Positions 54,926 to 62,093 of a DNA stretch of 64,000 nt are shown here, one piece after another. Source of the DNA: Streptomyces sp. Tue6028 (GTDB lineage Bacteria > Actinomycetota > Actinomycetes > Streptomycetales > Streptomycetaceae). The position numbers were made by a program, and so were the translations under genes. The first letter of the stretch is position 1, and each line of letters opens with the position of its first letter. The stretch lies in the NCBI RefSeq assembly GCF_002300165.1, contig NZ_MLCE01000022.1:124001-188000 (forward strand), in the 5' to 3' direction. A model generated the notes under the pieces. It did no database searches, was not told the DNA's origin, and worked only from the letters and a program-made list of their open reading frames with translations.

Positions 54926-57787
54926 TCACAGGGCCCGGGTCGCGTAGGCGCGGACGTCGGCGTCGGGGTCCGTCACGGCCGTGGCGAGGGCGGCGCGCGC
55001 GTCCTCGTCGGTGCCGGCGTGGTGCACGAGTGCCAGCACCGCGGCCTTGCGGACGTCGGCGTTCGGGTCGGAGAGGGCCTTGGTCAGCGTGGGCACGGCC
55101 GGTTCCGGGTCCGCGGCGGACAGCGCGGTCGCGGCGCCGGCCCGGACCTGCCAGGCGGGGTCGGCCAGGGCGGCGACGGCACGCGAGGCGGGCCCGGCCG
55201 GGCAGCCCGTGGCGGCCAGCGCCTCGAAGGCGGCGGCGCGGACCAGCGCGTCGTGGTCGGCGGTGAGCCGGTCGACGGTGGCCAGGACCGTGTCGTCCGG
55301 CGTCACATGGGCCAGCGCCTTGGCCACGGTGACGCGGACCTCGCGGGACGGGTCGGCCGCCGCCCGGGTCAGCGGTTCGGTGGCGTCGACGGAGACCAGG
55401 GCGCGCACGGCCTCGATACGCACGGCGATGTCGGGATCCGCCAGGGCGTCCGCGAACAGCGACGCGTCACCGAGGCGCAGTGCCCGCAGTACGTCCAGCG
55501 CGGCGGCCCGTACGACGGGATCGCCCCCGGGGAGCGCGGCGGCGAGACCGTCGCGCAGGGCGGGCTCCGGCGCCAGTGTCTCGACCAGCTCGCGCAGCGA
55601 GGCGGCCGCGGCGGCCCGCACCTGAGCGTGCGGGTCCCGCAGCGCGTCGGCGAGGACGGGTCCGGTGCCGGGTGGCACGGTCTCGGTGAGTGCGGCGAGG
55701 GCCGCGCGCCGCACGGCGGGAGCGGGGTCGGTCAGGTAGGGGCGCAGCGAGGGGAGTTCGGGCTCCTGCTCGGCGAGGGCGAGGAGTTCCAGCAGGCGGG
55801 GTGAGGAGTCGGGGCCGTCGTCCCCGCCGTGGGTGCCGTCCGGGAGGCGGCGGGCGCTGTCGGCGGGCAGTGCGGTATCGGCGGGGAGTGATGCTCCGCG
55901 GGTGGCTGTGGTGGCTGTGGTGGCTGTGGTGGCTGTGGTGGCTGCGGCAGGCGCGGGGGCGGTGGCCGCGATGTCCACGGCAGGTGCTCCGCCGGTGGGC
56001 GCGGCGGCCACGGGGGCCGCGTCCCGTGCGCCCGCCGTGGCCACGCCCTCCGCGTGGACCTCGCCGAGGTGCCGGGAGGGCCCGCCGGTCGGGGTGAAGT
56101 CGGGGACGGGGACGAGATAGGGAGCCACGGGACGAGCCGTGAACTCCATCGATCCGGAGGGGGACTTGTGCAGATCGAGGTGGTGGAACCAGGAGACGTC
56201 GTCGCGCACCGGATGGTCCGTGCGGTCGTGGTAGAGGCCCCAGCGGGACTCCGTGCGGGCGAGCGACGCACGCGCGGCCATCTCCGCGCAGTCGCGGATG
56301 AAGGTGACCTCGGCGCACCGCATCAGCTCGTGCGGAGTGCGGGCCCCCATCGCCGCGATGTCCGCGCGCATCCGCTCGAAGGCTTCGAGGGCGAGCGAGA
56401 GCCGGGCGCCGGACTTGGGCGGGGCGACGTAGTCGTTCACGAAGCGGCGGAGCTTGTACTCGACCTGGGGTTGCGGCGGTCCGTCCGGGTAGCGCAGCGG
56501 GCGGTAGATCAGCTCGTGCGCCTCGCGGAGCTGGTCCTGCGGCAACTCGCCCGCGTAGGGGGCGTACTGGGCGGCGTCCGCACCCGCGAGGTCACCGAAG
56601 ACGAACGCGCCGATCATGTAGTTGTGCGGGACGCAGGCCAGGTCGCCCGCGGCGTACAGGCGGGGCACGGTCGTCCGGGCGTGGTCGTCGACCCGGACGC
56701 CGGACGCGGAGTGACCGCCGCACAGGCCGATCTCGGAGATGTGCATCTCGACGTCGTGGGTGCGGTAGTCGTGTCCGCGGCCGGAGTGGAAGGTGCCGCG
56801 GGTGGGGCGTTCCGTGGAGTGCAGGATGGATTCGAGGGCGCTGATCGATTCCTCGGGGAGGTGGCTCAGCTTCAGGTACACCGGGCCGCGGTCCGAGGCG
56901 ACCTCCGCGGCGAACTCGGCCATCATCTGGCCCGACCAGTAGTCGGAGTCGACGAAGCGCTCGCCGTGCCGGTTGACCTGGTAGCCGCCGAACGGGTTGG
57001 CGACGTAGGCGCAGGCGGGACCGTTGTAGTCCTTGATCAGCGGGTTGATCTGGAAGCACTCGATACCGGTGAGCTCGGCGCCCGCGTGGTAGGCCATGGC
57101 GTACCCGTCACCGGCGTTGGTGGGGTTCTCGTACGTCCCGTAGAGGTAGCCGGAGGCGGGTAGGCCGAGCCGGCCGCAGGCGCCGGTGGCGAGGATCACG
57201 GCGCCGGCGCGGACCGTCACGAACCGCCCGGTGCGGGTGTTGAAGCCCGCCGCACCGACCGCGCGGCCCCCGGCCGTGAGGACCCGCACCGGCATCACCC
57301 GGTTCTCGATACGGATCCGCTCGCGCATCTCACGCCGCCGCAGTTGCCGGTAGAGGACCTTCTTGACGTCCTTGCCCTCGGGCATCGGCAGTACGTAGGA
57401 GCCGGAGCGATGCACCTGGCGGACCGCGTACTCGCCGTGCTCGTCCTTCTCGAACTTCACGCCGTACGACTCCAGGCGCTGCACCATCGCGAAGCCGCGG
57501 GTCGCGGTCTGGCGGACGGTGGACTGGTCGACGATGCCGTCGTTGGCGCGGGTGATCTCGGCGACGTAGTCGTCGGGCTCGGCACGGCCGGGCACGACCG
57601 CGTTGTTGACGCCGTCCATGCCCATGGCGAGGGCGCCGGAGTGCCGGACGTGTGCCTTCTCCAGGAGCAGGACGTCGGCACCGTGCTCGGCGGCGGTCAG
57701 CGCCGCCATGGTGCCGGCCGTGCCGCCGCCGATGACGAGGACGTCGCAGGACAGCTCTTCGGCGGCTGCGAGCGCGGGGATCTCCAC
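54926..57787 (-). CDS. AprA-like FAD oxidoreductase fused to a C-terminal HEAT-repeat domain
   Basis: GTG 57787 (AAAGG upstream) gives 953 residues. Residues 1-600 are a fumarate-reductase/adenylylsulfate-reductase-type flavoprotein: GGGTAG at 20-25, LEKAHVRHSGALAMGMDGVNN, ILATGACGRLG, GGHSASGVRVDD and YAAGDLACVPHNY. The helical end (LMRCAEVTFIRDCAEM, then ESRWGLYHDRTDHP) matches the AprA subunit closely. A Pro/Ala/Thr linker (about 600-660) contains ATT repeats made by a 9-bp DNA repeat at 55902-55944. Residues 670-953 are about nine HEAT-like repeats (for example DPNADVRKAAVLALV). It lies last in an operon with an AprB-like ferredoxin and a sulfonate-type transporter. Substrate unknown. Confidence 0.85.
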   Translation of the reverse strand: MEIPALAAAEELSCDVLVIGGGTAGTMAALTAAEHGADVLLLEKAHVRHSGALAMGMDGVNNAVVPGRAEPDDYVAEITRANDGIVDQSTVRQTATRGFAMVQRLESYGVKFEKDEHGEYAVRQVHRSGSYVLPMPEGKDVKKVLYRQLRRREMRERIRIENRVMPVRVLTAGGRAVGAAGFNTRTGRFVTVRAGAVILATGACGRLGLPASGYLYGTYENPTNAGDGYAMAYHAGAELTGIECFQINPLIKDYNGPACAYVANPFGGYQVNRHGERFVDSDYWSGQMMAEFAAEVASDRGPVYLKLSHLPEESISALESILHSTERPTRGTFHSGRGHDYRTHDVEMHISEIGLCGGHSASGVRVDDHARTTVPRLYAAGDLACVPHNYMIGAFVFGDLAGADAAQYAPYAGELPQDQLREAHELIYRPLRYPDGPPQPQVEYKLRRFVNDYVAPPKSGARLSLALEAFERMRADIAAMGARTPHELMRCAEVTFIRDCAEMAARASLARTESRWGLYHDRTDHPVRDDVSWFHHLDLHKSPSGSMEFTARPVAPYLVPVPDFTPTGGPSRHLGEVHAEGVATAGARDAAPVAAAPTGGAPAVDIAATAPAPAAATTATTATTATTATRGASLPADTALPADSARRLPDGTHGGDDGPDSSPRLLELLALAEQEPELPSLRPYLTDPAPAVRRAALAALTETVPPGTGPVLADALRDPHAQVRAAAAASLRELVETLAPEPALRDGLAAALPGGDPVVRAAALDVLRALRLGDASLFADALADPDIAVRIEAVRALVSVDATEPLTRAAADPSREVRVTVAKALAHVTPDDTVLATVDRLTADHDALVRAAAFEALAATGCPAGPASRAVAALADPAWQVRAGAATALSAADPEPAVPTLTKALSDPNADVRKAAVLALVHHAGTDEDARAALATAVTDPDADVRAYATRAL

Positions 57788-57807: not shown

Positions 57808-58608
57808 TCAGCTGCCGAGTGACGTGAGGACCTCACGGCGCAGGGCGAGCCTCGCCGGGTCGTCCGATGCGGACCGCTCGCGGGGGCGCGGGACTTCGCG
57901 TACGGCGAGGAGCCGCCCGCTGCCCGCGGCGCCGTCCGGGCCGTCCGGGCGGGCGGCGCCGAGCAGGGCCACCCGGTCGCCGAGGAACAGTGCCTCGTCC
58001 ACGTCGTGGGTGACGAAGACGACGGTCGCCCCGCTGCCGTGCAGTACCTCGACGAGGAGGTCCTGCATGCCGGCGCGGGTCTGGGCGTCGAGCGCGCCGA
58101 AGGGTTCGTCCATGAGGACGGCGCGGGGTGCGCCGGCGAGGGCGCGGGCGAGCTGGACGCGTTGGCGCTGTCCGCCGGAGACGCGGTGCGGCAGCTGCCG
58201 TTCGCGGCCGGCCAGTCCGACCCGGGCGAGCCAGGACTCGGCCTGCCGCCGCCGCTCGGAGCGTGCCGTTCCGGCGATGGCCAGCGGGAGTTCGACGTTG
58301 GCGCGCAGGGTGCGCCAGGGCAGGAGGGAGTCCTCCTGGAAGACGAGCGCCCGGTCGGCGGCGGGGCCCGCCAGGGGACTGCCGTCCTGGGCGACCGTTC
58401 CCGCGAGGGCGGGCAGCAGCCCGGCGAGCGTGCGCAGGAGGGTGGACTTTCCGCAGCCCGAGGGGCCGACGACGGTGAGGATCTCGCCGGGCGCGACGTC
58501 GAGGTCGACGCTGTCGAGGGCGGGGGCGCCGGGGCGGCCGAGCGAAGCGTTCACGAGGGAGAGCCGGGTGCCGCGCACGGCGGCTGGTGTCTCAGACGAG
58601 GTGCTCAT
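57808..58608 (-). CDS. ABC transporter ATPase (TauB/SsuB-like)
   Basis: ATG 58608 lies 17 nt inside the upstream permease gene. The 266-residue ATPase has VVGPSGCGKSTLLR (Walker A), QEDSLLPWRTLRANVELPL (Q-loop and TauB/SsuB-type DLLPW region), VSGGQRQRVQLARAL (signature), RAVLMDEPFGALD (Walker B) and VVFVTHDVDEALFLGDRV (H-loop). The pattern is that of nitrate/sulfonate/taurine-type importers. The flavoprotein gene starts 20 bp after its stop. Confidence 0.9.
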   Translation of the reverse strand: MSTSSETPAAVRGTRLSLVNASLGRPGAPALDSVDLDVAPGEILTVVGPSGCGKSTLLRTLAGLLPALAGTVAQDGSPLAGPAADRALVFQEDSLLPWRTLRANVELPLAIAGTARSERRRQAESWLARVGLAGRERQLPHRVSGGQRQRVQLARALAGAPRAVLMDEPFGALDAQTRAGMQDLLVEVLHGSGATVVFVTHDVDEALFLGDRVALLGAARPDGPDGAAGSGRLLAVREVPRPRERSASDDPARLALRREVLTSLGS

Positions 58609-59497
58609 CGCGTACCCCCTCGGGATGTGCGGGCGTCGTCGTCCCGGCGGGGACCGCCGCAGCGGCGGCCTTGCGGGCGCGCGGCCCCAGAACCCGGCCG
58701 CGCGCCCCGGGAACCCGGAGGTGTGCCGTGGCGACGTACTCCGTGCGGGGCAGCCAGCGGGTGAGCCACCGGCCCGCGCGTTCGACGGCCGTGGAGGTGA
58801 GCCAGCCGAGCACGCCGATCGTGACCATGCCGACGAAGACGCCGGGGTAGTCGACGACGGTGTAGTCCTGCCATGTGCGGTAGCCGACGCCGTACTGGCC
58901 GGAGATCATCTCGGCGGAGATGACGCAGATCCACGAGACGCCGATGCCGACGGAGAGGCCGCCGAAGATCCCGGGGAGGGCGCCGGGCAGGACCACCGAG
59001 CCGAGCACCCGCCACCGGCCGCCGCCCATCGTGCGCACCGCCTCCTCCCACACGGGTGTGAGGGCGCGGACGGCGTGCCGGGTGGAGACCAGGACCGGGA
59101 AGTAGGCGGCGGTGCAGGTGATGAAGACGATGCCCTGCTCGTTGCTGGGGAACAGGAGGATCGCGACGGGCACCAGCGCGATCGCCGGGATCGGGCGGAC
59201 CACTTCGAGCAGCGGCCCGAGCAGGTCCTCGGCGAGGCGGGAGCGGGCGACGGTCAGGCCGGTGGCGACACCCAGGACGGCGGCCAGCACGAAGCCGGTC
59301 AGGATGCGGGTGAGGCTGTCGGTGAGGTCCGTCCAGTAGTCGTCGCCGCCCAGCCGGTCGCCGAAGGCGCGGGCCACGTCGGCGACGGTGGGGAACTGCG
59401 AGAAACGCAGCCACAGGTCGACGTCCAGGCTCGTCAGGAGCTGCCAGGCGGTCAGGGCCGCGGCGAGCGACGCGGCCCTGACGAGATGGCGGGTCAT
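58592..59497 (-). CDS. ABC transporter permease (TauC/SsuC-like)
   Basis: ATG 59497 overlaps the stop of the substrate-binding gene by 4 nt (ATGA). The 301-residue permease has about six membrane helices and the BPD-transport loop EEAVRTMGGGRWRVLGSVVLPGALPGIFGG (the EAA motif). WICVISAEMISGQYGVGY is typical of the SsuC/TauC group. The C-terminal 35 residues are a charged Arg/Pro tail, part of which overlaps the start of the ATPase gene. Confidence 0.9.
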   Translation of the reverse strand: MTRHLVRAASLAAALTAWQLLTSLDVDLWLRFSQFPTVADVARAFGDRLGGDDYWTDLTDSLTRILTGFVLAAVLGVATGLTVARSRLAEDLLGPLLEVVRPIPAIALVPVAILLFPSNEQGIVFITCTAAYFPVLVSTRHAVRALTPVWEEAVRTMGGGRWRVLGSVVLPGALPGIFGGLSVGIGVSWICVISAEMISGQYGVGYRTWQDYTVVDYPGVFVGMVTIGVLGWLTSTAVERAGRWLTRWLPRTEYVATAHLRVPGARGRVLGPRARKAAAAAVPAGTTTPAHPEGVRDEHLV

Positions 59498-60843
59498 GAC
59501 GCCCGCGCCAGGGCCGCGGCGTACGAGAGGGTGCGGGCGCCCCGGTGGGCGGCGACGTACTTCCGGGCGGCGGCCTGGGTGACGAAGGGGTGCAGCTCGT
59601 CGCCGTCGGCCACCCACACCGACCTGTCCGCGAACCAGAGGGTTCCGGTGGTGGTGTCGGGGACGTACGCGGCGCGGAGGGTGGAGCGGTGCGCGGCCAC
59701 GTAGCGCAGGAGGGCGGTGGGGGAGTCGAAGGCGCGGGTGGTGGCGGCGCCCTCGGGCCACGCCTCGCTCGCGGCCGGCGGGGGCGCCGCGGCGAGCTGG
59801 TCGGCGTACGCGGCCGGGCCGAGCGCACGCTTGACGTACCGGTCGTCGACGAAGGCGTCCACGTCCACGTCGCCGACGAGTTTCGCCGACTTCAGGATCG
59901 CGACGTCCTTCTTCAGGGCGGAGACCAGGCGGGGCTGGAGCGCCGGACCGAAGGTGGCCGTGCCGTGCGCGCCGTTGTAGAGGTAGACGACCTCGGCGGG
60001 CAGCCCGGTGGCCTTCGCGACCTTCTCCGCCGCGGCCACCGGGTGGTCGTGCAGGTAGTCCGTCGCCTCCGACTGGGCCTTCAGGAAGGCCTCCAGGACG
60101 GCCGGGTGCTTCTTGGCGAAGTCCTCCCGGGCGGTCACGCCGTGGAAGGTCGGCAGGTTCAGTTCGGCGCCGTCGTACAGGGCCTTCGCCTTGCCCTGGT
60201 AGGCGAGCAGACCGGGCCAGGCGACGAACTGCGACAGTGCGTCCGCGCTGCCCGCCGTGAGCGCCGAAGCACCCACCGCGGGCTGCTGGTTGAGCTTCTG
60301 GATTCCCTTGTCCGGGTCGATGCCGGCGCGCTGGAGGGCCCGCACGAGGGTGCCGTCGGCGGCCGAGCCGACACTCGTCGACACCTTCTTGCCGCGCAGG
60401 TCACTCAGGGAACGAAGCTTCGAATCCGGGGCCGTGACGATGGTGTTGAGGCCGCCGCGGAGGTTGTAGCCGGTGACGGAGACCAGGTGGGTGGGGCGCC
60501 CCAGCTGCTTGCCGCGGGCCGCGTTGATGAGGAGCGGGAAGTCGCCCATCGAACCGATGTCGATCTTCCCGGCGGTCATCTGGGCGGTGATCGGGGCGCC
60601 GGTCGCGTAGTCCTGCCAGTTCACCTTGTACGTGGTGCCGTCACCGAGGGCGTCGAGCTGCTTCTCGAAGGAGCCGAGCGAGCGCAGCAGGGTGCCGGCC
60701 GTGACGGTGTTGATCGTCTTGGACTGGTAGCCGACGGTGACGGTGACCGTGGAGCCGTCGCCGGCCGCCGTGTCCGCGCCGCACGCGGTCAGGGGAAGGA
60801 CCAGAGCCGCCGTGGTGAGGGCGGCGATCGCTTTGTGTCTCAT
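59494..60843 (-). CDS. TauA/SsuA-like substrate-binding lipoprotein with C-terminal NosL-like domain
   Basis: ATG 60843 gives 449 residues. The signal peptide MRHKAIAALTTAALVLPLTAC has the lipobox LTAC with Cys at 21. Residues about 35-345 form a TauA/SsuA/NrtA-type binding domain (WQDYATGAPITAQMTAGKIDIGSMGDFPLL, STSVGSAADGTLVRAL, AREDFAKKHPAVLEAFL). After a Pro/Ala linker, residues about 360-449 read like a NosL-type module: TRAFDSPTALLRYVA, AAYVPDTTTGTLWFAD, and FVTQAAARKYVAAHRGARTLSY. The metal-binding Cys of NosL proteins is missing. I know of no standard importer with this tail, so this is unusual. It is 15 bp downstream of the ferredoxin gene. Confidence 0.82.
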   Translation of the reverse strand: MRHKAIAALTTAALVLPLTACGADTAAGDGSTVTVTVGYQSKTINTVTAGTLLRSLGSFEKQLDALGDGTTYKVNWQDYATGAPITAQMTAGKIDIGSMGDFPLLINAARGKQLGRPTHLVSVTGYNLRGGLNTIVTAPDSKLRSLSDLRGKKVSTSVGSAADGTLVRALQRAGIDPDKGIQKLNQQPAVGASALTAGSADALSQFVAWPGLLAYQGKAKALYDGAELNLPTFHGVTAREDFAKKHPAVLEAFLKAQSEATDYLHDHPVAAAEKVAKATGLPAEVVYLYNGAHGTATFGPALQPRLVSALKKDVAILKSAKLVGDVDVDAFVDDRYVKRALGPAAYADQLAAAPPPAASEAWPEGAATTRAFDSPTALLRYVAAHRSTLRAAYVPDTTTGTLWFADRSVWVADGDELHPFVTQAAARKYVAAHRGARTLSYAAALARAS

Positions 60844-60858: not shown

Positions 60859-61086
60859 TCACCGCAGCAGATAGGGCATGTCGACCGTGACGGCCCCGGT
60901 GGGGCAGCGCGCGGCGCACGGGCCGCAGTACCAGCACTCGTCGACGTGCATGTACGCCTTGCCGCTGCTCTCGTCGATGGCGAGGGAGTCCAGCGGGCAC
61001 ATGTCGACGCACAGGGTGCAGCCGTCGATGCACTTCGACTCGTCGATGGTCACGGGCACGTCGGCCCGCTGGGGTGCCAAGGGCAT
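60859..61086 (-). CDS. AprB-like ferredoxin with two 4Fe-4S motifs (75 aa)
   Basis: ATG 61086 has GGAG 7 nt upstream; a longer in-frame start would add 16 residues. The 75-residue protein has C19-x3-C23-x2-C26-x3-C30 and C51-x2-C54-x2-C57-x3-C61, each with Pro after the last Cys. The second motif ECWYCGPCAARCP resembles AprB of adenylylsulfate reductase. It most likely passes electrons to or from the AprA-like flavoprotein. It is small for AprB, which has an extra C-terminal tail. Confidence 0.85.
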   Translation of the reverse strand: MPLAPQRADVPVTIDESKCIDGCTLCVDMCPLDSLAIDESSGKAYMHVDECWYCGPCAARCPTGAVTVDMPYLLR

Positions 61087-61143: not shown

Positions 61144-61923
61144 TCAGCGGGCGCGGCGGAGCTGTCCGCTCATGCTGATGCGGTCTCCGCGGAAGCGGAT
61201 GAACTCCAGGTCCACGGGGCGGCCGTCGGCGAGATGGGTGAGCCGTTCCAGCATGAGGACGGCGGTGCCGCGCGGGGCCTGGAGCACGGCGGCGGAGTGC
61301 GCGTCCGCGTTCACCGCCTCCAGGGTGATGTCGGCGTGCCCGAGGGGCTGTCCCGTGATGGCTTCCAGGAGGCGGAAGACGTCGGTGTTCTCCAGGTCGG
61401 CGGCGAGCAGGTCGGCACCGAGGTCGAGGGGGATGTAGGTGAGGTCGAGAGAGAGCGGGAGGCCGTCCAGGCGGCGGAGGCGTTCGATGTAGAGGACGTC
61501 GGCACCGGGGGCGATGCCGAGGCGGTCGGCCACGGGGGCGGGTGCGGCCACCGGGCCCATCGAGCGGACCTCATTGCTGACCTGGCCGTGTTCGCGCAGG
61601 GTCTCCGCGAGTCCCATCAGCCGGTCGAGTCCCTGCGGGTATTTCTGTGCCACGACGACGGTGCCGACGCCGGGCAGTCGTTCCACCAGGCCTTCGGCGC
61701 GCAGCAGGTCCAGGGCCTGGCGGACGGTGTTGCGCGAGGCGCGGTAGTCCGTGCCGAGGGCGGCCTCGTGCGGCAGGGAGCCGTCCGGATAGCCGCCGGT
61801 CAGCACCTGCCGGCGGAGGAGGTCGGCGAGTTGCCGCGCCCGGTCCGCGCGCAGCCGACGCCGGCGGGCGGCGACGGTGGTCGCGCCCTGGCCGGCGTGG
61901 TCGCGGATGCGGTCGGTGAGCAT
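61144..61923 (-). CDS. GntR/HutC-family regulator
   Basis: ATG 61923 gives 259 residues. The winged helix is clear (LADLLRRQVLTGGYPDGSLPHEAALGTDYRASRNTVRQALDLLRAEGLVERLPGVGTVV), followed by a UTRA ligand domain (ADVLYIERLRRLDGLPLSLDLTYIP, then RGTAVLMLERLTHLADGRPVDLEFIRFRGD). It lies first in the operon, 57 bp before the ferredoxin gene, so it probably represses the cluster until a substrate-related ligand binds. The region upstream contains a minisatellite. Confidence 0.88.
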   Translation of the reverse strand: MLTDRIRDHAGQGATTVAARRRRLRADRARQLADLLRRQVLTGGYPDGSLPHEAALGTDYRASRNTVRQALDLLRAEGLVERLPGVGTVVVAQKYPQGLDRLMGLAETLREHGQVSNEVRSMGPVAAPAPVADRLGIAPGADVLYIERLRRLDGLPLSLDLTYIPLDLGADLLAADLENTDVFRLLEAITGQPLGHADITLEAVNADAHSAAVLQAPRGTAVLMLERLTHLADGRPVDLEFIRFRGDRISMSGQLRRAR

Positions 61924-62093
61924 GCGCCGGACGATACCGACGCGGTGCGGCGAGTGGTGTTGCTGGAGTGTTGCGCCACCTGGGCACGCGGCGGGCGCTG
62001 CCCTGACCTGCGGCTTTCGATGCCGCCGTCGAAGATCTGCCACCGGCGGCGGAGGCGGGGCGGGGGCCGATTCGACCCCCGGACCCCGTGCCT
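61924..62093. other. Upstream region of the GntR operon
   Basis: This 170-bp stretch precedes the minisatellite and should hold the promoter of the GntR operon on the minus strand. I see no clear -10/-35 pair or gene. It is very GC-rich after 62040. Confidence 0.35.

Follow-up and report, generated by a model that had tools for sequence, protein, structure and literature searches.

Excerpts of PMC6530538 describe NosL as a Cu(I) chaperone built of two beta-beta-alpha-beta domains. In the same excerpts, the conserved Cys of a CxM motif is thought to help bind Cu(I), the Met of that motif has been suggested to be a second ligand, and a further Met is invariant. The NosL/MerB fold is presented in an excerpt of PMC4999995 as a duplicated treble clef with a reused metal site. 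So far, this fold has been tied to Cu(I) chaperoning (NosL) and to Hg-carbon cleavage (MerB). The catalytic residues of MerB are C96, D99, and C159, and YcnK carries a NosL domain. An excerpt of PMC8424229 describes YcnK as a copper-dependent repressor of B. subtilis. Among sulfur-related systems, the asfRABC aromatic-sulfonate cluster combines a binding protein, an ABC importer, and a reductase/ferredoxin pair (excerpts of PMC4267179), and AsfA/AsfB have been named in C. metallidurans (excerpts of PMC2864759).

We analyzed a window of 64,000 nucleotides from Streptomyces sp. Tue6028; all features described below lie on its minus strand. The central gene (59494..60843, stop codon counted) encodes a 449 aa SsuA-like substrate-binding lipoprotein with a NosL-fold tail, as judged from the open reading frame and its translation, a SsuA family match, and the full-length AlphaFold2 model (mean pLDDT 84.6). 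Its lipobox cysteine, C21 (LTAC by eye, 60781..60783), is the only Cys of the protein. The substrate-binding domain comprises residues 31-354 (59782..60753) and includes a PF09084 match at residues 86-271. The best solved folds for this core are SsuA (3ksx, 3ksj, and 3e4r) and TauA (6ssy), and the match to 3ksx (E 1.5e-19, TMt 0.86) shows an SsuA/TauA-type binding fold. The core scored 139.9 bits against TIGR01728 (SsuA), under the curated cut-off of 163.5 bits, and 76.8 bits against TIGR01729 (TauA). An earlier note, made from the sequence alone, had read the protein as a TauA-like lipoprotein fused to a NosL-like tail. The fusion is genuine, but the core is closer to SsuA.

Alignment, the hhalign register, and the Cys count delimit a linker at residues 345-358 (59770..59811). 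The NosL/MerB-fold domain follows at residues 359-448 (59500..59769) and consists of two beta-beta-alpha-beta units. The motifs that had been quoted from residues 355-449 (bases 59497-59781) are present in the translation. The tail extent of about 90 residues also holds, with the predicted folded domain spanning about 359-448 rather than 355-449. The GC content of the tail (59494-59781) is 77% versus 70% in the core.

When the tail alone (98 aa) was compared with Pfam, it matched one family, NosL (PF05573, E 0.0018), with 19.0 bits against a curated cut-off of 24 bits. A match below the threshold may be due to chance, so further homology tests were run. PF05573 matched 18 of 32 diverse tails (best E 4.4e-8), while the other 14 had no NosL match among the Pfam matches listed. 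The next-best family matched two of the 32, and none matched more. The tail of one relative, G149, reached 33.1 bits, above the PF05573 cut-off. A tail profile compared with PDB sequences up to E 10 gave a single match, to NosL 2hpu (E 0.022). By hhalign, the tail alignment matched ten NosL sequences over 106 columns with a probability of 97.5% (pairwise E 7.6e-12), and a Streptomyces-rich full-length alignment matched NosL with 90.4%. Over 396 Actinomycetota genomes, the tail profile found 18 places, consisting of 17 binding proteins and one genuine NosL. Because 13 of these 17 binding proteins were in the profile itself, their recovery is by construction. The genuine NosL (E 3.3e-7) is above the PF05573 cut-off and contains CxxCGM, and its gene adjoins a NosY-like permease gene (by eye).

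The tail was modeled by AlphaFold2 with a pLDDT of ~96 within the full protein and a mean pLDDT of 92.9 alone; both models are of the window protein, whose tail is Cys-free. The beta-beta-alpha-beta pattern occurs twice. Foldseek returned probabilities of at least 0.85 only for NosL, NosL of NosDFYL, and MerB, with a modest best E-value of 4.3e-3. VIA-align superposed the tail on NosL 7og7 with Z 11.4 (1.7 A, 90 residues), on the NosL chains in NosDFYL with Z 9.3-9.8, and on NosL 2hpu with Z 8.6. MerB was the second fold family found (Z 8.2-5.8, with 12% identity to 3f0o), and the first unrelated row among the matches listed had Z 3.4. In the predicted models, the two units are packed as in NosL, giving a NosL/MerB-like fold. 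The claim of a NosL-like tail after the binding domain is thus borne out by the predicted fold, by hhalign as an HHpred-type comparison, and by the tail profile; structure prediction of the tail found the NosL fold rather than an unrelated one. We conclude that the tail is homologous to NosL and that the fold assignment is correct.

Scanning of genome contigs identified 80 related loci, from Streptomyces, one Kitasatospora, Microbispora (L075), and Cupriavidus (L079). The tail was detected by tblastn in 78 of them; L079 was missed by tblastn and aligns end to end, which brings the count to 79 of 80. The sole exception is in Streptomyces sp. WAC08241 (L073:5623-7311), where the binding-protein frame continues into HEAT-like sequence. 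This locus has no tblastn match for the tail, permease, ATPase, or flavoprotein, and it is either a remnant operon or an assembly error. Of 396 Actinomycetota genomes, 15 contain the binding protein, at 17 places. All 17 have the tail, 16 in frame and one (G149) in another frame, the gene being frameshifted in its record.

In a plasmid collection, 133 records matched, and we examined 12 from the 40 listed. The tail is present in all 12 plasmid loci examined, which come from Sinorhizobium, two Methylobacterium, Aquabacterium, Methylocystis, Paraburkholderia, Variovorax, and Cupriavidus, as well as Gordonia, Nonomuraea, and the cyanobacteria Leptolyngbya and Pseudanabaena. Acidithiobacillus caldus plasmids (L157 and L158) carry copies that stop at or near an ISAtc1 transposase gene; these were left out of the tail counts. 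The fusion therefore spans three phyla (Actinomycetota, Pseudomonadota, and Cyanobacteriota), and it is old. The search for other fusions of this kind, proposed with the original reading, found the tail kept in close and distant homologues alike. A sequencing artefact or frameshift as the origin of the tail was ruled out because the frames are open in relatives, the tail recurring in 79 of the 80 loci. We found no account of the fusion in the open-access PMC literature, judged from titles and abstract starts among the matches listed.

The tail of the window protein contains neither Cys nor Met. The Cys and Met of the CxM motif, a motif that is also present in NosL sequence A4 of the alignment, are absent, as is the later (PMG) Met. 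The absence of the usual metal Cys had been recognized from the start and is confirmed by C21 being the only Cys. In relatives, a Cys aligned with the CxM Cys falls in a segment of the linker region that is absent from the window protein (alignment and hhalign register). A second Cys of relatives (e.g., in TPTCLL), also found in some NosL, corresponds to Ala377 (59713..59715) in the first turn of helix 1 (helix 375-384), according to the alignments and the AlphaFold2 model. A Cys is at that position in four of ten NosL sequences, e.g., PACLL in Thermus (L126).

With a few columns of tolerance, both Cys occur in 12 of 106 homologues and neither in 94, and none has one alone. The members with the pair are all outside Streptomyces. 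As 80 of the 106 are from Streptomyces or Kitasatospora and lack the pair, the rate outside these genera is 12/26. The CxM Met is absent from all 12 (by eye). A core-domain tree of 35 rows, in which 16 of 32 inner branches are well supported, requires the pair to have changed at least five times, and well-supported branches force three of these changes. Five joint losses from an ancestor with the pair is one reading, as the tree leaves the direction of change unfixed; the pattern suggests that the pair was lost jointly several times. The two positions match the treble-clef knuckle and the helix start, so the two Cys would be expected to lie close together. They may form a disulfide or a two-thiol site.

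The binding-protein gene lies in an apparent operon. The ATG of an ABC permease gene (58592..59497, BPD_transp_1) overlaps the TGA of the binding-protein gene (ATGA), and it is followed by genes for a TauB/SsuB-like ABC ATPase (57808..58608, profile matches) and a 953 aa FAD protein (PRK13800; 54926..57787) that is APS/PAPS-reductase-like and has HEAT repeats at its C-terminus. The latter matched NF010374 with 1653 bits (cut-off 1196); among solved structures, the PAPS reductase alpha subunit 8a8o is closest to it (E 2.9e-53). On the other side are genes for a small 4Fe-4S ferredoxin-like protein (75 aa, 60859..61086, recognized by eye from its Cys spacing) and, upstream, a GntR/UTRA regulator (61144..62043, open reading frame and domain match). 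Among the 80 genome-contig loci, the 64 that span at least 13 kb all gave tblastn matches to the GntR regulator, the ferredoxin, the binding protein, both further importer genes (permease and ATPase), the flavoprotein, and its HEAT part, a count of presence irrespective of gene order. The fusion of flavoprotein and HEAT repeats (54926-57787) also occurs in Microbispora, and the HEAT part is a separate gene in Pseudomonadota and Leptolyngbya. Three alphaproteobacterial versions have, before the flavoprotein, a small protein with the annotation DUF971 or gamma-butyrobetaine hydroxylase-like (L098:2528-2809, L099:10138-10491, and L104:2311-2688).

Among 20 other tail-bearing loci with flanks, 13 have the flavoprotein (tblastn) and seven (L105, L107, and L115-L119) have no flavoprotein match in the stretch examined. 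Five of these seven (L105, L107, and L117-L119) have a sulfatase, accompanied in four by a formylglycine-generating-type enzyme and in all five by a SulP-type match, which is fragmented in L107. The CxPxR motif was confirmed in the two sulfatases checked. L115 and L116 have no sulfatase, formylglycine-generating-type enzyme, or SulP in the stretch examined. The operon resembles one for organosulfur import, combining an importer with an APS/PAPS-reductase-like flavoprotein or, in some relatives, a sulfatase, and the window protein probably captures sulfur-containing nutrients for import. Taken together, the SsuA/TauA core fold and the partner enzymes make a sulfonate or sulfate ester the likely cargo. 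No account of the operon was found in the literature among the matches listed.

We consider it fairly probable that the tail is a true NosL/MerB-fold domain that acts as a ligand-free accessory module, stabilizing or orienting the binding protein of an organosulfur ABC importer. Computation supports this through the homology and predicted fold of the tail, the broad retention of the fusion, the lost copper ligands, and the operon context. A NosL/MerB-fold domain would have been fused long ago to the lipoprotein of such an importer, in an ancestor whose old metal position may have been occupied by a thiol site. In some relatives this site would persist as the Cys pair, most likely as a disulfide. 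In Streptomyces the site would be gone, and the domain would work outside the membrane as an accessory module with no ligands. There it may stabilize the binding protein or orient it on the permease during the handover of a sulfonate or sulfate ester. Inside the cell, the FAD/4Fe-4S enzyme, or a sulfatase in some relatives, would process this cargo. The sequence of the tail in this lineage indicates that it lacks a metal site of the NosL kind; its docking or stability role, including contact with the permease, is one that we infer. This interpretation agrees with the alternative of a repurposed fold, which the earlier note had also offered.

In the note's other proposal, the tail acts as a sensor or supplier of a metal or cofactor for the operon's redox enzyme. 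In its favor are the role of NosL as a Cu(I) chaperone (excerpts of PMC6530538) and the flavoprotein and ferredoxin genes in the cluster. However, both Cys positions and the Met are gone. The tail sits on a lipoprotein, whereas the flavoprotein and ferredoxin have no export signal by eye, so that the enzyme is apparently cytoplasmic. Relatives of this enzyme use FAD and Fe-S. Delivery of a metal to this enzyme is rejected on two grounds: the tail lacks the ligands, and relatives carry the tail with no such enzyme nearby (the 7/20 loci above). The proposal is extremely unlikely, and metal delivery by the window protein is not supported. A NosL that serves nitrous oxide reductase was also discarded, as a search of the organism's genome for PF05573 at E 0.001 found nothing, a result that speaks against metal delivery too; the control search for NosL gave a match in B. 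subtilis that carried no gene name. Formylglycine-generating-type enzymes require copper, and to cast the one next to the importer in L105 as receiving copper from the tail would be speculation. The tail might also be a decaying passenger without function. Its ancestral site is lost, and over 21 pairs of the window and Streptomyces loci (Nei-Gojobori) it evolves faster than the core, with a median dN/dS of 0.52 versus 0.23 and one value above 1. Yet dN/dS is below 1 in 20 of the 21 pairs, a central block (RAAYVPD..TGT.WFA) is almost unchanged throughout the Streptomyces-rich set, and three phyla have retained the tail, which makes this reading very improbable. Only three columns are invariant across the wider set of 32 tails, and the tail is neither neutral nor tightly fixed.

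Two further explanations assign the domain a ligand, past or present. The Cys pair of relatives could tune import, working either as a redox switch or as a Cu(I)/Hg(II) site of two thiols, with the Streptomyces form as a relict. The pair never occurs as a single Cys and has changed repeatedly on the core tree, its first Cys aligns with the CxM Cys and its second with a Cys of several NosL, and the metal site of the fold has been described as reused (PMC4999995, in excerpt). A plain structural disulfide, however, accounts just as well for two Cys that occur together or not at all. The 12 all lack the CxM Met, and the window protein has neither Cys; we regard a switch or two-thiol site as unlikely. 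MerB being the second fold family, and the tail being joined to a sulfonate-type receptor, would also suit a second ligand-binding module or a relict of a MerB-like lyase for an organosulfur or organometal compound. The low identity to MerB and the presence of C21 as the only Cys argue against this, and we find it quite improbable. Compared with these explanations, the ligand-free accessory module remains the reading that we prefer.

The fusion across three phyla suggests that an old metal-handling part has been reused in nutrient uptake. It adds organosulfur receptors to the proteins with a NosL/MerB fold, and it marks a widespread importer whose partner, in the majority of relatives examined, is APS/PAPS-reductase-like; other relatives have a formylglycine-type sulfatase. 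Forms with the Cys pair and ligand-free forms on one scaffold provide a natural series, through which the role of the fold without metal becomes testable. It is conceivable, if unlikely, that in the three phyla the domain serves organosulfur importers as a second module for sensing or binding outside the cytoplasm, and that members with the Cys pair still read the thiol/metal state or bind a metal-complexed sulfur compound. If so, the uptake of sulfur nutrients would be gated by copper or redox conditions.

Compared with known systems, the tail resembles NosL (PF05573; 7og7, 2hpu, and 7osf chain H) in the two beta-beta-alpha-beta units of its predicted fold, the YVxD block, the Ala of the second unit, AF/PF, and the late helix with its A and G. 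It differs in lacking the CxM Cys, CxM Met, and PMG Met, in being fused to a binding protein, and in having an organosulfur-type ABC operon rather than nos genes as neighbors. With the organomercurial lyase MerB it has the NosL/MerB fold in common, but at 12% identity and with no Cys except C21 in the window protein. YcnK-type regulators likewise join a NosL domain to an unrelated domain, which in their case binds DNA. An apparent fusion of this YcnK-like type, HTH (by eye) and NosL with its Cys kept, was seen in an actinobacterial genome (L114:1123-1707).

The core has fold and sequence in common with the SsuA/TauA sulfonate-binding proteins, and the known ones lack the tail. Like asf, the operon has a binding protein, an ABC importer, and a reductase and ferredoxin, but its regulator is of the GntR/UTRA type instead of LysR (AsfR). 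We did not file it as asf, the C. metallidurans proteins being only ~30% identical. In C. metallidurans, an AsfA candidate that adjoins a ferredoxin (L138) matched with E 3.1e-11 at 30% identity, and the best match there (E 4.4e-25) has no ferredoxin match beside it. C. metallidurans was absent from two tblastn lists of 51 and 55 records. The closest solved relatives of the flavoprotein by sequence are the PAPS reductase alpha subunit of Methanothermococcus (8a8o) and the APS reductase AprA, from which the operon protein is set apart by its added HEAT repeats.
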